Shown here: positions 2,457-30,161 of the stretch, one piece after another
How the letters are laid out: each line of letters opens with the position of its first letter
Numbering within the stretch: position 1 is the first letter of the stretch
IMG/VR virus record: IMGVR_UViG_3300032245_000183
Coordinates: 1 to 39,373 of that record
Direction: 5' to 3' (one strand)
Source of the DNA: a virus
Length of the DNA stretch: 39,373 nucleotides
Notes under the pieces: model-generated
Database searches by the model: none
Seen by the model: the letters and a program-made list of their open reading frames with translations, nothing else
Told to the model about the DNA's origin: nothing
Made by a program: the position numbers and the translations under genes

Positions 2457-2983
2457 AAGTACCAGTAATGCGGGATGCCTTTCAAGCGGAAGGCTTGGCA
2501 AAGCTGTGTGAGTGGGCGAATGAACAGGGTGCAAATAATAGGGCGGTTGAGATTGGCTCTTATAGTGGTGAGGGAACAGTAGTTCTCGCAAAGTATTTTA
2601 AGGATGTTCTTGCCGTAGATCCCTGGCTGAATGGCTACGATATTAACGATAGGGCGAGTCAGCAATGCCCGATGAAGTTTGTCTTTGACGCATTCCAAGA
2701 GCGCGTATCTCCATTTAAGAATGTTTTATATAGCAGGGGCAAAAGCCTAGATGCGCTTGAATTCTTCAAGGATGGCGAGCTAGACCTAGTTTATATTGAC
2801 GGAGATCATCGCTACGAAGGCGTGCTGGCAGACCTAAAAGGTTGGCGCAAGAAGCTTAAAGAAGGCGGGATTATGGCTGGTCACGACTGGAGTTGGAAGT
2901 CAGTTAAGATGGCCCTACTTGAGGAAATAGGACAAAAGGACTATACGCTATTCCAGGGCGATTCCTGGGCAATAAAACTATGA
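2453..2983 (+). CDS. Class I SAM-dependent methyltransferase (Methyltransf_24-like)
   Basis: A Rossmann-type methyltransferase: motif I VEIGSYSGEGT near residues 32-42 (TTG start) binds S-adenosylmethionine, LAVDPW follows as the acidic end of strand 2, and DLVYIDGDHRYEGVLADL is the signature of the family often found beside sugar-modifying enzymes. TTG at 2453 overlaps the portal stop; ATG at 2468 is an equally good start and would give 171 aa. The substrate is unknown. Position between portal and scaffold is unusual and suggests cargo inserted in the head operon, possibly acting on a surface glycan or a small molecule. Confidence 0.75.
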   Translation: MKVPVMRDAFQAEGLAKLCEWANEQGANNRAVEIGSYSGEGTVVLAKYFKDVLAVDPWLNGYDINDRASQQCPMKFVFDAFQERVSPFKNVLYSRGKSLDALEFFKDGELDLVYIDGDHRYEGVLADLKGWRKKLKEGGIMAGHDWSWKSVKMALLEEIGQKDYTLFQGDSWAIKL

Positions 2984-3303
2984 GAAAACTAAAAGCAGCA
3001 TTGGCGTTTATTCGCAACCAAGAATGGGTCAACGAACCTAAGTGGGAAGATGAGGACGAGAAGGCGTGGACTGGATTCTTGTCAACCCCAACAGGACAGA
3101 AGCTAAGTCTTATTTTACTTAACCTAACCTTGCGTCAAAACGCCTCTGCGGTAATGAAGAAACCAGAGGAACTTGCAGACGCTTGTGGACGTGCTAAAGG
3201 GTTTAGAGGATGTGTAGCGACTTTAGAGTCGTTGGCATCCCAAAAACTTAACTCCGCCATCCCAGGCTATGGGGATGGATCGGATGAACCAGTAGCCGAC
3301 TAA
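2980..3303 (+). CDS. Hypothetical protein between methyltransferase and scaffold (107 aa)
   Basis: I do not recognise this protein. It begins with an ATGA overlap on the methyltransferase stop, so it is translationally coupled. It is Lys/Glu-rich at the N-terminus, has a helical middle (LSLILLNLTLRQNASAVM) and a Gly/Asp-rich end, with no signal peptide or clear membrane segment. Small proteins at this site in related gene orders are often minor head or head-assembly proteins, but nothing in the sequence proves that here. Confidence 0.7.
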   Translation: MRKLKAALAFIRNQEWVNEPKWEDEDEKAWTGFLSTPTGQKLSLILLNLTLRQNASAVMKKPEELADACGRAKGFRGCVATLESLASQKLNSAIPGYGDGSDEPVAD

Positions 3304-3351
3304 CCTTTAGGTAGAATGACTCCCTACCGAAAAGTGTAAGAAAGGGTCAAA

Positions 3352-4323
3352 ATGGCGGATTCAAACAACCTAACTGAAGCGGATGTATTGGCGATGGCGC
3401 AAGCGGCTGACGAAGGACGAGATTTTAATCTCACTCCCAAGGAAGACGAAAAAGCCAAAGTAGAAACAGAAGCTACAGAAAAGGCCAGCGGAGATAACGA
3501 GCAGACACCCGCGCCTGCTGATAAAGCCGAACAAACAAAACTAGAAGCCTCGGATGAGGTTTCAGCGACCAAGGAGAAATCCGAGGAAGCCAAAAGTTCT
3601 TTAACAACGCAATCTTCAGAAGACAAGTCGGAGTCGGCTTCCGAAAAGAAGCCCACCCGTTACGAGAAGGCTAAGTCACGACTTGAGAAGGAGTGGGAAG
3701 ATGTCCGAGCAGAGAAAGCCAGAATCAAAGCAGAGCGTGAGCAGATCGAGGCTGAAAGGGCAAGGAAGACTCCAGAAACTCCTCAAGGCGAGACAAAGTC
3801 GGGAAGTCGCAAGTTTAGCGCGGAAGATTACAGGGAAGCAGCAAAGAGCTACCGTGATGAAGGCCGTGACGATCTTGCAAAACTTGCCGAACAAAAAGCT
3901 GGTGACATTGAAGTCGAGGATCGGAAAGAAGTCGAGCAAAAAACCCAAGCAGAACTAAAGTCTGCCTGGGATAAAAATTTGCTTGATGAAGTAGAAGCAA
4001 ATCCAGAACTTAAAGATTCAACCAGCACATTATATAAAGCCGTATCGGAAATGTTGCAAAACCACGCAATCCTGCGTAATTACCCAGCGGGTATCAAGGA
4101 TGCGGTTGGAATTGCCAAGGTAAAGCTCCAAGCGGAGTCCGCCTCCGATTTGTCGAAAAAGGTTGCAGAGTATGAGAAAGAACTTTCTCAACTCAGAAAA
4201 GCGACTACTCCAGCGTCTGGACAACCCAAAGGTCCTGCCAAGACTAAAGCTTTTCACGAACTGACTCTTGATGAGCAAGAACGTGAATTGATGAAAATGG
4301 CAAGCGAAGTTGACAGAGGTTGA
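3352..4323 (+). CDS. Scaffold-like capsid assembly protein (323 aa)
   Basis: Placed directly upstream of the major capsid gene, this 323-aa protein is highly charged (Glu, Lys, Ala), predicted mostly helical and coiled-coil between about residues 110 and 180, with a low-complexity acidic N-terminal third and a basic/helical C-terminus (ELTLDEQERELMKMASEVD). That composition and position are characteristic of phage scaffolding proteins, which fill the prohead during assembly and leave before packaging. There is no protease domain, so removal would be by exit or an unlinked protease. Start ATG is preceded by AAAGGG about 10 bases upstream. Confidence 0.75.
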   Translation: MADSNNLTEADVLAMAQAADEGRDFNLTPKEDEKAKVETEATEKASGDNEQTPAPADKAEQTKLEASDEVSATKEKSEEAKSSLTTQSSEDKSESASEKKPTRYEKAKSRLEKEWEDVRAEKARIKAEREQIEAERARKTPETPQGETKSGSRKFSAEDYREAAKSYRDEGRDDLAKLAEQKAGDIEVEDRKEVEQKTQAELKSAWDKNLLDEVEANPELKDSTSTLYKAVSEMLQNHAILRNYPAGIKDAVGIAKVKLQAESASDLSKKVAEYEKELSQLRKATTPASGQPKGPAKTKAFHELTLDEQERELMKMASEVDRG

Positions 4324-26869: not shown

Positions 26870-27063
26870 AAAAGAAAAGCAGAAAGATAGCTTTGGTAAA
26901 AACATTGGAAGAAAAATCCGTAAGAGTAATGATTGATGTTGACGATGAACTTTACGAGGCTTTGGCAAAGGCTGGCCGCCATCATTTTGCTAAAGATAAG
27001 ATGGCCTGTTTTGAGTACGCGCTGAACAAAGCGTTGCTGGAATTATGCGAGGAACTGAAATGA
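26866..27063 (+). CDS. Ribbon-helix-helix-like small protein (65 aa)
   Basis: After a basic N-terminus (MKKKSRKIALVK) the sequence SVRVMIDVDDELYEALAKAG followed by a helix fits a ribbon-helix-helix DNA-binding fold: one beta strand, then two helices. Such proteins are usually repressors. It overlaps its neighbours on both sides by 4 bases. The call rests on pattern only. Confidence 0.5.
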   Translation: MKKKSRKIALVKTLEEKSVRVMIDVDDELYEALAKAGRHHFAKDKMACFEYALNKALLELCEELK

Positions 27064-27629
27064 GCGAGTTTAAGCAGAAGGTATTAACAGCAGCAGTTGA
27101 CCGCTACGTCCTAACAAAGACACAGTGCGAGATGTTACGCCAGGATGCGGAAGTGATCGGGATGAAACGTGCAACTGTAATGAAGAAGGATGGCACTACG
27201 CGCAGGTCGTTTGCTAGAAGTTGCTCGTCTTGCTGGATACCTTACGCCAAGCACAACAACTGGATCTACAATATTATGCGTGAGCTTACAGATGCCATTA
27301 ACGCAGAGCATTGGCGCATTGACATTACTGGCGTGCAACAGTTGCAGATTCTAAAGTACAATCCACTCCAGCAGTTTTGGTGGCACTTCGATGCGTTCAC
27401 ATCAGAAGCACCAGTGCGCAAGCTTACAGCGGTAGTCAATCTATCTGCACCAGATGAGTACATTGGAGGTGGCCTGCAAGTTAAGGCTGACCTAGACAAT
27501 GCCAAGTTTATCCGCGAGCAGGGAGCAGGTTGTTGGTTTCCGTCCTACATCGAACATCGTGCGCGTGCGCCAATATGGGGAACGCGCTGGGTGTTGGTGG
27601 CTTGGTTTACTGGACCTGCCTGGCGATAA
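27060..27629 (+). CDS. 2-oxoglutarate/Fe(II)-dependent oxygenase (189 aa)
   Basis: The iron-binding triad is visible: His109 and Asp111 in WWHFDAF, and His166 in SYIEHRARA; Arg176 in WGTRWVLVAWF would bind 2-oxoglutarate. GGGLQVKAD lies between, as in prolyl-4-hydroxylase-type enzymes. ATG 27060 overlaps the previous stop (ATGA). Phage members of this superfamily hydroxylate proteins or nucleic acids. In this cluster, with a C5-cytosine methyltransferase and glycosyltransferases, oxidation of a methylated base is possible, but the sequence looks closer to the prolyl hydroxylase branch than to TET/JBP. Confidence 0.78.
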   Translation: MSEFKQKVLTAAVDRYVLTKTQCEMLRQDAEVIGMKRATVMKKDGTTRRSFARSCSSCWIPYAKHNNWIYNIMRELTDAINAEHWRIDITGVQQLQILKYNPLQQFWWHFDAFTSEAPVRKLTAVVNLSAPDEYIGGGLQVKADLDNAKFIREQGAGCWFPSYIEHRARAPIWGTRWVLVAWFTGPAWR

Positions 27630-28255
27630 TGGCAACGCTCAACGAGAACATCCCTAGCTTCAAGGCTATGGTGAGAAAGTCATTCTTTACCAAGGACGAG
27701 TCAGACAAGGAGTTTTACAACGTCTATGTGTTCGCCTTGCAGTCTTGCGCTGGTGCAATCCTAACCTTCCACGTTATGACTGACTCTGGAATGTTGCGGA
27801 GTCGAGTACCGCTATCGGAGATATACACGCACGAGCCAGAGGCCGACATCCCATTTAACTACAAACAACTTTGGGATTGCTTCAGCGAGAATGTAACCGT
27901 AACCGAGTATAGCTTCCTAGCCTACCATCGCGCGCAGATCCTGCTTAGGGATGCGACCAAGGTATGGGGTACATACTTGTTTACTGTGGATTGGTTTAAC
28001 AATCCCTACAGCGATGAGCCGTCCGACTACAAGTGCGGTCACGTCTTCGCTGGTGACGATGGCTACTTACTCTGTATGCCTAACAACCGCATCTTCTGGC
28101 GGGATAGTAATTGGGTTACAAAGAAGTTGCCAGATAACCTAAAGCAGTTTCGAGTTGATACCGAGCTGCCATCTGTGGAGAATCAGAGTGACAAGTGGGT
28201 GACGGAGGATACAGATTCTTTTTACTACGATCTTTGCAAGAAGGAGACGGCATGA
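27629..28255 (+). CDS. Unrecognised protein between oxygenase and Mom-like genes (208 aa)
   Basis: ATG 27629 overlaps the oxygenase stop (TAATG). The 208-aa protein is rich in Tyr, Trp and Phe, acidic, with FYNVYVFALQSCAGAILTFH and KVWGTYLFTVDWFNNPYSDE. I do not recognise a family or active site. Position between two modification enzymes makes a role in the same pathway possible. It overlaps the next gene by 4 bases. Confidence 0.65.
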   Translation: MATLNENIPSFKAMVRKSFFTKDESDKEFYNVYVFALQSCAGAILTFHVMTDSGMLRSRVPLSEIYTHEPEADIPFNYKQLWDCFSENVTVTEYSFLAYHRAQILLRDATKVWGTYLFTVDWFNNPYSDEPSDYKCGHVFAGDDGYLLCMPNNRIFWRDSNWVTKKLPDNLKQFRVDTELPSVENQSDKWVTEDTDSFYYDLCKKETA

Positions 28256-28920
28256 CAATTTTACGCGCAGATAGTTCAGTAGTAGAACTTCCACTATTCC
28301 AAGGGAAAAACGGCGGTGCAATTCCGACCTCTGCGCTCCAGCTTAAATTCAAAGTGATAACATCACAGACGCTCAATGATGTGGTGGTTGAGAATCATTA
28401 TGCCCATAGAGCCGTGCCTTGTAGTTGGTCGTTTGGATGTTTTAATTCCAGCGAGCTGCTTGGTGTAATATCATTCGGAAAACCAGCATCGCCACACCTG
28501 TGCAGAGGTATATGCGGTGAGGAGAATGCGCCAAGGGTATATGAGTTGAACAGATTATGGCTTGATGACAGATGCCCAAAGAACTCTGAGAGCAGGTTTA
28601 TATCTTGGAGCATAAGAGAGCTTTCTAAATTGCGTCCATACTTGATTCTTGTTAGCTATGCAGATACTGGTGCTGGTCATAATGGCGCGATCTACGCGGC
28701 CACAAACTGGACCTATACTGGCCTATCGGACAAGAGGTCATCTGGTGACAAGGTGGTTGGCAACAAGCACAGCAGGCACTCAAGAACGATGGAGGATGCT
28801 GTGATAGTTCCCAGGACTAGGAAACATAGGTTTGTATATTTTTGCAACCCAGCAGATAAGTGTCTGCTCAAATGGGATATTGCAAATTGGAAAGAATGGA
28901 AAGAATATAAAGGAGAATAA
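28252..28920 (+). CDS. Mom-like DNA adenine modification protein (222 aa)
   Basis: The arrangement VVVENHYAHRAVPCSWSFG (residues 44-62), GVISFGKPAS, YELNRLWLDD (97-106) and SYADTGAGHNGAIYAATNW (135-153) matches the Mom family of phage Mu, a GNAT-fold protein that converts adenine in DNA to a bulky acetamido form and shields phage DNA from restriction. A strong AAGGAGA stands 5-11 bases before ATG. Mu controls mom tightly because the modification is toxic; no such control site is visible here. Confident on family, less on exact product. Confidence 0.8.
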   Translation: MTILRADSSVVELPLFQGKNGGAIPTSALQLKFKVITSQTLNDVVVENHYAHRAVPCSWSFGCFNSSELLGVISFGKPASPHLCRGICGEENAPRVYELNRLWLDDRCPKNSESRFISWSIRELSKLRPYLILVSYADTGAGHNGAIYAATNWTYTGLSDKRSSGDKVVGNKHSRHSRTMEDAVIVPRTRKHRFVYFCNPADKCLLKWDIANWKEWKEYKGE

Positions 28921-29102: not shown

Positions 29103-29281
29103 TGCAAGTCGAGGCTAGAGATCGCCTCAAGTGGGCGCGCGAGATCCTTTCAATTGCACGCAATAAGCTTGTAGTTGAGAGGGATCGCGCGACTCACGGA
29201 CACGCTATAGATATGATTCAGATTATAACGATGGTGGATGCGGCGAGCTTGGTGTGCAAAGAGGTAGCGGGGGATGAATGA
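29102..29281 (+). CDS. Small helical hypothetical protein (59 aa)
   Basis: ATG at 29102 overlaps the previous stop (TGATG). The sequence is entirely helical with alternating charge (RDRLKWAREILSIARNKLVV) and ends just inside the methyltransferase start. A GTG three bases upstream is possible. No family recognised. Confidence 0.55.
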   Translation: MQVEARDRLKWAREILSIARNKLVVERDRATHGHAIDMIQIITMVDAASLVCKEVAGDE

Positions 29282-30161
29282 AAAAACACACCTCGACTTA
29301 TTTAGCGGGATCGGAGGATTTGCCTTGGCAGCCAAGTGGAATGGATATAGAACCGTTGGCTTCTGTGACAACGAACCCTACGCACAAGCAGTCCTCAAAA
29401 AGCATTGGCCCGAAGTGCCGTGCCACAAAGACATCCGCGAAGTACGAGGCGAGCTATACGCAGGAGTCACTCTTCTCACAGGCGGATTCCCATGCCAACC
29501 ATTCTCAGTCGCAGGGAAACAACGAGGTAAGGATGACAACCGTTACCTCTGGCCTGAAATGTTGCGAGTTATACAAGAAGCAAAGCCAGTTTGGATCATT
29601 GGTGAGAATGTTGCTGGGATCGTCAACTTGGCACTCGACCAGGTGTGCGCTGATCTGGAAGGTCAAGGTTACGAAGTCGAACCGATCATTGTTCCAGCTT
29701 GCGCCGTTGACGCGCCACATAGAAGAGACAGGTGCTGGATCATCGCCAAATATATGGCCGACACCGTCAGCCTGTCCGAGAGGGGCGCACACGGGAGCAA
29801 GGAGTGGGGCTGTGTCCGAGGACGGCAAGACGAGGACATCAGCCAACGGAACGAAGTGGGGGGCAATACTCCAGACTGCCGTGAGAATGTGGCCGACTCC
29901 GTCAAGCAGGGACGGGAAGGGCGGGTACATAGGCGGGAGGATGCGGAACGGGAAAGTGTCGATGGATACGCTGGATGTAGCGGTACAACATACGGACAAT
30001 CAGGAGAAGCAATCTGGCTCGCTGAACCCAACGTGGGTCGAGTGGCTAATGGGATACCCAATAGGTCACACCGACTTAAAGGATTGGGTAACGCCGTCGT
30101 CCCGCAAGTCGCGTCAGAAATCATCAGATGTATCAACAAAATAATGGAGGATAACAAATGA
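29274..30161 (+). CDS. C5-cytosine DNA methyltransferase (295 aa)
   Basis: All main motifs are present: I DLFSGIGGF (8-16), IV GGFPCQPFS with catalytic Cys74, VI ENV (111-113), VIII RRDR (150-153) and X GLGNAVVPQVA (about 270-280). It should transfer a methyl group to C5 of cytosine at a short target site. The target-recognition part (about 160-250) is low in hydrophobic residues and odd in composition because the DNA there also encodes a second open frame (29278-30144). No partner restriction enzyme is seen, so it is an orphan protecting phage DNA or feeding further modification. Confidence 0.9.
   Translation: MNEKTHLDLFSGIGGFALAAKWNGYRTVGFCDNEPYAQAVLKKHWPEVPCHKDIREVRGELYAGVTLLTGGFPCQPFSVAGKQRGKDDNRYLWPEMLRVIQEAKPVWIIGENVAGIVNLALDQVCADLEGQGYEVEPIIVPACAVDAPHRRDRCWIIAKYMADTVSLSERGAHGSKEWGCVRGRQDEDISQRNEVGGNTPDCRENVADSVKQGREGRVHRREDAERESVDGYAGCSGTTYGQSGEAIWLAEPNVGRVANGIPNRSHRLKGLGNAVVPQVASEIIRCINKIMEDNK
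29278..30144 (+). CDS. Overprinted +1-frame protein inside the C5-methyltransferase gene (288 aa)
   Basis: A second ATG four bases after the methyltransferase start opens a 288-codon frame that covers almost the whole gene. Its translation carries blocks I recognise from stand-alone phage proteins: LLGSSTWHSTRCALIWKVK (112-130), IWPTPSA, MWPTPSSRDGKGGYIGGR (204-221) and SGSLNPTWVEWLMGYPIG (246-263). In other phages these blocks occur in proteins often labelled as methyltransferase-related. Both starts share one GAGGT ribosome-binding region. It is therefore a candidate true dual-coding gene. Opposite-strand frames are also open for about 160 codons, so composition alone explains part of the openness. 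Confidence 0.5.
   Translation: MKKHTSTYLAGSEDLPWQPSGMDIEPLASVTTNPTHKQSSKSIGPKCRATKTSAKYEASYTQESLFSQADSHANHSQSQGNNEVRMTTVTSGLKCCELYKKQSQFGSLVRMLLGSSTWHSTRCALIWKVKVTKSNRSLFQLAPLTRHIEETGAGSSPNIWPTPSACPRGAHTGARSGAVSEDGKTRTSANGTKWGAILQTAVRMWPTPSSRDGKGGYIGGRMRNGKVSMDTLDVAVQHTDNQEKQSGSLNPTWVEWLMGYPIGHTDLKDWVTPSSRKSRQKSSDVSTK

Follow-up and report, generated by a model that had tools for sequence, protein, structure and literature searches.

Can one stretch of phage DNA encode two long proteins at the same time and, if it does, what is the second protein for? The question is raised by a locus in a viral sequence of 39,373 nucleotides (IMG/VR record IMGVR_UViG_3300032245_000183; the whole stretch is called the window below), in which a C5-cytosine methyltransferase (MTase) gene and an open +1 frame run together over most of their length. 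The initial annotation, made from the letters of the sequence, took the first frame (here alpha) for a full MTase and the second (here beta) for a member of a stand-alone phage protein family that would have arisen by overprinting on an MTase gene, with the window perhaps keeping the ancestral dual-coding state. The motif content of the two frames and the behaviour of their relatives lead us to a different identity for beta: it is, most probably, the motif-IX subunit of a two-polypeptide C5-MTase resembling M.EcoHK31I, both chains of which would be read from the same DNA.

Results

Two frames open at adjacent start codons

The two long frames do open at neighbouring ATGs, as had been noticed: the start codons lie four bases apart in ATGAATG (start context ATGAATGA) and the frames are 295 and 288 codons long (Table 1). 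Beta has no Pfam or NCBIfam match and is recognised by phrog_1008, a family named "DNA methyltransferase". Its conservation begins only at about residue 62, and its translation may start at 29278 or internally, for example at 29533.

Table 1. Features of the MTase locus and its surroundings (positions in the window)
Feature	Position	Strand	Evidence and remarks
Mom-like DNA modification protein	28195-28920	+	phrog_1384, 7e-50; just upstream of the MTase
Alpha, C5-cytosine MTase chain, 295 aa	29274-30161	+	PF00145, 6e-42 (profile 4-162/324); phrog_363, 5e-76
Beta, +1-frame ORF, 288 aa, proposed motif-IX subunit	29278-30144	+	phrog_1008, 8.9e-29; kept in relatives; purifying selection
Beta N-terminal extension, residues 1-60	29278-29457	+	lineage-specific, open, weakly constrained
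Alpha motif I, DLFSGIGG	29295-29318	+	near-invariant in alpha alignment
Beta conserved core, residues 62-267 (N-domain, WPTP linker blocks, motif IX)	29461-30078	+	alignments; AF2 of moderate confidence for parts only
Alpha catalytic motif IV, PCQ	29490-29498	+	invariant in alpha alignment
Possible internal beta start, M86	29533-29535	+	GAGG in front, context gaggtaaggATG; not universal among relatives
Alpha motif VI, ENV	29604-29612	+	E111 and N112 invariant in alpha alignment
Alpha motif VIII region, HRRDR	29718-29732	+	alpha alignment
G6 run in linker common to alpha and beta	29858-29863	+	relatives have G9-G15 or (AG)n tracts there
Beta motif IX, LNPTWVEWLMGYP	30022-30060	+	near-invariant in beta alignment; same block in L196
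Alpha motif X, GNAVVPQ	30087-30107	+	near-invariant in alpha alignment

Motif IX is missing from alpha and present in beta

Alpha contains the C5-MTase motifs I, IV, VI, VIII and X. The statement that frame 0 carries all motifs nevertheless fails on one of them: motif IX was sought in alpha and is absent, the PF00145 match ending at position 162 of the 324 in the profile. On the DNA where motif IX would be expected, frame 0 gives EPNVGRVANGIP and the +1 frame gives LNPTWVEWLMGYP. The sequence blocks listed in the initial annotation are present, and these two are superposed as it described; LNPTWVEWLMGYP, at the end of beta, is the most conserved block of that chain.

The identity of this block is best seen in a relative from a Rickettsiales MAG (L196, positions 3125-4156), a natural single-chain MTase in which motifs IX and X lie in one frame and which ends in a phrog_1008-like tail. 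Its sequence reads ...RLNPDWVEWLMGYPISWTEGGSRKQRLMALGNSVVP..., with the block LNPDWVEWLMGYP immediately before motif X in the same frame. We conclude that the tail of beta is motif IX because (i) PF00145 covers L196 over positions 2-322 of 324, against 4-162 for alpha, (ii) phrog_1008 matches L196 over the C-terminal motif-IX block only and (iii) phmmer aligned this block and GNSVV of L196 to the motif IX region of M.HhaI, KLHPRECARVMGYPDSY...GNSVV, in a low-scoring second domain of about 7 bits. The arrangement in L196 is possibly the ancestral one. Structure prediction was less informative: two AF2 models of beta had mean pLDDT values of 57 and 64, a low confidence that became moderate only in parts. 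Foldseek found no fold match for these models in the PDB, and a beta profile matched no PDB sequence.

These observations bear on two other ways of reading beta. It might be an independent phage protein acting outside the enzyme, such as a regulatory protein or a further anti-restriction factor, as the conserved N-domain with no known fold matched would allow and as the clear selection on beta (see below), which holds whatever its function, would equally permit. We consider this improbable, given the precedent of M.EcoHK31I, the distribution of motif IX between the two frames and the fact that beta is never found away from the alpha gene in the viral loci listed (160). Less probable still is a programmed ribosomal frameshift, by which the frames would be joined into one MTase chain bearing motifs I-X. 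The order and spacing of motif IX (+1) and motif X (frame 0) are indeed those of a normal MTase, a single-chain relative exists and some relatives have alpha-N and beta-C in one ORF; yet two shifts of opposite sign would be required, beta has its own conserved N-domain, the short-beta ORF described below begins at a start codon, and inspection by eye revealed no conserved slippery site.

The +1 frame is under selection

Dual coding at this locus is real, and both frames are conserved and under selection. When frame 0 was redrawn synonymously with the codon usage of the phage, a stop-free +1 frame was obtained in 0 of 20,000 draws (mean 12.7 stops). Permuting the codons of alpha gave the same count (0/20,000; mean 7.3 stops), and redrawing with the codon frequencies of the alpha gene itself left the +1 frame open in 0.0003 of cases. 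In 13 other genes of the window the +1 frame stays open for at most 153 codons.

The relatives provide an internal control, since in many distant ones beta starts only at about alpha codon 55-60. Across 39 such short-beta sequences, 140 stops interrupt the +1 frame within alpha codons 0-52, immediately before beta starts, and codons 60-154 are free of them; between the same two segments the 4-fold synonymous divergence of alpha falls from 0.34 to 0.14, from 0.60 to 0.38 and from 0.68 to 0.49 in three divergence bands, all of these figures being counts rather than independent events because the sequences have common ancestry. The claim of dual coding is thereby upheld: synonymous divergence drops where beta is coded, by up to more than half, and the +1 frame of homologues does not freely gain stops. 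A chance ORF is ruled out by the codon resampling together with the stops and synonymous divergence in relatives. Against the same evidence, the idea that the long +1 ORF is an untranslated by-product of MTase codon bias and sequence constraint deserves almost no credence, even though coupling of the superposed motifs at the DNA level makes alpha responsible for some of the conservation seen in the +1 frame, and in most genes of this phage the +1 frame contains fewer stops than the +2 frame.

The long-beta relatives, to which the window's clade belongs, behave differently at the 5' end. Over the 60-residue N-extension of beta only 2 stops were counted in 95 sequences, and the 4-fold synonymous divergence in the window's clade is 0.27 in this extension versus 0.20 in the core. 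Being open and yet more divergent at synonymous sites than the core, the extension appears lineage-specific and weakly constrained.

The whole family is dual-coding

Viral relatives were collected as 160 loci among the matches listed, 80 recruited by beta and 80 by alpha. Both chains are encoded, in the same +1 register, in all 160, and both are intact in 132 of the 149 in which all four domains (the N and C domains of alpha and of beta) were found. Relatives in bacterial genomes with all parts found overlap again, except for the single-chain L196 and a few rearranged loci. The same design occurs in gp58 of E. coli phage N15, in K1ind2, in Paenibacillus phage Lily, in E. coli prophages and in a Citrobacter plasmid bearing terminase genes. 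In four bacterial contigs (L169, L179, L187 and L191) the motif IX and motif X parts are adjacent or far apart and do not lie on common DNA; these are possible intermediates or rearrangements.

A stand-alone beta was found neither in the viral contigs (0/160 among the loci listed) nor in the phages, plasmids and bacterial genomes searched. Records that look like one result from annotators having picked one of the two frames: both frames are annotated in K1ind2 (as "Mte8-like protein") and in Lily (beta as "g62 internal gene"), whereas in Stenotrophomonas phage SOVA965 beta alone is annotated, under an MTase name, and in Pseudomonas phage phPA-G beta alone, as hypothetical. One-frame annotation also explains why the blocks of beta had been taken for those of stand-alone proteins. 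The original interpretation therefore survives in its first half, dual coding under selection, and is lost in its second: the apparent stand-alone homologues are annotation choices, the window is no special keeper of an ancestral state since its whole family is dual-coding, and the overprinted protein, rather than being unrelated to the MTase, most likely supplies the motif-IX portion that alpha lacks. Annotation has also affected an E. coli prophage (L229, positions 2489-3658), in which RefSeq splits an intact 404-aa alpha ORF into two fragments marked incomplete and gives no beta; we rejected this "incomplete" split MTase as a case of frame switching because the ORF is intact.

Repeat tracts are associated with frame states in relatives

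The linker common to alpha and beta carries repeats in part of the family. A tract was defined as a homopolymer of at least 9 or a dinucleotide repeat of at least 8 units, and 253 distinct complete loci were compared. Among the 51 tract-bearing loci, 21 have both chains in frame, 18 have alpha-N fused to beta-C and 12 have beta-N fused to alpha-C; the 202 loci lacking a tract comprise 198 in frame, 2 with alpha-N/beta-C, none with beta-N/alpha-C and 2 others, all prevalences that are not population estimates because at most 80 loci were taken per scan and some were recruited by pattern, a bias that leaves the association of state with tract unaffected. This association is strong (Fisher p 8e-23 over the 253 loci), and the 21:18:12 split does not differ from 1:1:1 (p 0.29). 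The alpha-recruited sample gives a similar picture: all 56 complete loci that lack a G-tract are in frame, against 9 of the 20 that have one. As the fused frame is open in 29 of the 30 off-phase tract loci, there is no sign of decay.

Alignments of the relatives trace the different frame states to G-runs or AG repeats in the common linker that differ in length. This is seen most directly in three near-identical loci, L042 (G10), L017 (G11) and L050 (G12), which are in three different frame states. In L134, L135 and L141 it is (AG)10-19 that has the role played elsewhere by G-runs. Poly-G encodes glycine in every frame and would therefore be a harmless linker for both chains. When 2.9 million viral contigs were scanned for G9 next to motif VIII or the WPT block, most of the matches belonged to this MTase family. 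Besides G11-G12, the linkers of L014, L201 and L211 contain a pentanucleotide repeat, (GTTCT)3 or (AACAG)3. Hypermutable coding-region repeats with lengths in different frames are thus a property of relatives and not of the window, where the linker has only G6 and the locus is in the in-frame state.

In another subclade, poly-G of 11-14 lies inside alpha motif I, beside the ATGAATG double start; its length is 11-12 in L299, L300, L303, L306, L307, L310, L340 and L346. A run of G12 puts alpha in frame, and at G11 reading from the alpha start leads into beta. These tracts may form a second switch site, at the 5' end of the gene.

Based on the tracts, we lean towards the view that slippage by one base in a G or AG tract would act as a three-state phage switch that changes both MTase subunits at once. 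Its states would be both chains in frame, alpha-N with beta-C, and beta-N with alpha-C, and overprinted genes would thus exchange their tails. A full-text literature search of partial coverage found no earlier report of such a switch. Every switch locus is a metagenomic contig, G10-G15 runs are error-prone and the poly-G is corrupted at some contig ends, e.g. in L342, so the slipped-strand phase variation that we infer here might instead reflect assembly or sequencing errors in long homopolymers. This is a serious objection, which we nonetheless judge unlikely to hold: tracts recur at fixed positions across divergent lineages, both as G-runs and as (AG)10-19; among loci recruited by means other than a tract, the density of G/C runs of at least 9 is 469 per Mb for the linker and 8.8 per Mb for the flanks; all but one of the off-phase loci retain an open fused frame; and one state is repeated in the separate contigs L042 and L043.

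Discussion

The closest counterpart of this locus is M.EcoHK31I (recognition sequence YGGCCR), where an alternative frame within the large-chain gene (309 aa) encodes the small chain (176 aa), as in M.EaeI. The large subunit of M.EcoHK31I carries motifs I-VIII and X and the predicted TRD, and the smaller polypeptide motif IX only (PMC3404938). The window's locus shows the same partition, alpha holding motifs I-VIII and X while beta holds motif IX, and the same nesting of the small chain in another frame of the large-chain gene. It differs in being phage-borne and, judging by the genes examined, an orphan; in the almost complete overlap, beta starting 4 nt after alpha in the window's clade; and in the frame-switching repeats of its relatives. 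By motif division and gene layout we liken its working to that of M.EcoHK31I, and we regard it as a probable member of that type. M.EcoHK31I itself was sought among the E. coli matches, and those opened were prophages, not restriction systems. In M.AquI (CYCGRG) the motifs are also divided between two chains, the small subunit holding the distal part of the variable region together with motifs IX and X (PMC3404938); however, AquI is an ordinary split, whereas here IX and X lie on the same DNA in two frames.

A working model may be suggested. Alpha would bind AdoMet and provide the catalytic cysteine and motifs I-VIII and X, while beta, with its own conserved N-domain and a WPTP-rich linker ahead of motif IX, would complete the small domain. 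We infer that the two chains form a heterodimer, that both are needed and that the assembled enzyme methylates phage DNA, most likely allowing the phage to evade host restriction. The last role appears likely because a Mom-like modification gene lies directly upstream. Two small ORFs follow this Mom-like gene, and the region resembles a modification cassette; a 2OG-Fe(II) oxygenase-like protein (27045-27629, + strand; phrog_61, 1.8e-23) is encoded near the modification genes. In relatives, not in the window, linker repeats would set one of three relative frames, and slippage would switch both chains on or off together.

This putative switch recalls the MTases (Mod) of bacterial phasevarions, where a repeat tract in an MTase gene likewise takes lengths over all three frames. 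The differences are that the carriers here are phages, that the enzyme is a C5-MTase, that a single tract determines in which frame two overlapping subunits are read and that tails are exchanged instead of chains being only truncated.

By itself, the window is a new phage example of a known enzyme type, and what is new in the family is the switch in its relatives. If our reading is correct, the common annotation "phage DNA methyltransferase" conceals a second gene, systematically missed and needed for activity, so that MTases of this family would seem inactive when cloned or annotated; the name of phrog_1008 already hides members that are read from the other MTase frame and have motif IX only. 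The locus would also be among the clearest examples of long dual coding where the two products belong to one enzyme. Finally, in the relatives the modification of phage DNA would in addition be switched by repeats, that is, phase variation of phage DNA methylation via tail exchange between overprinted genes, which bears on how phages escape restriction.
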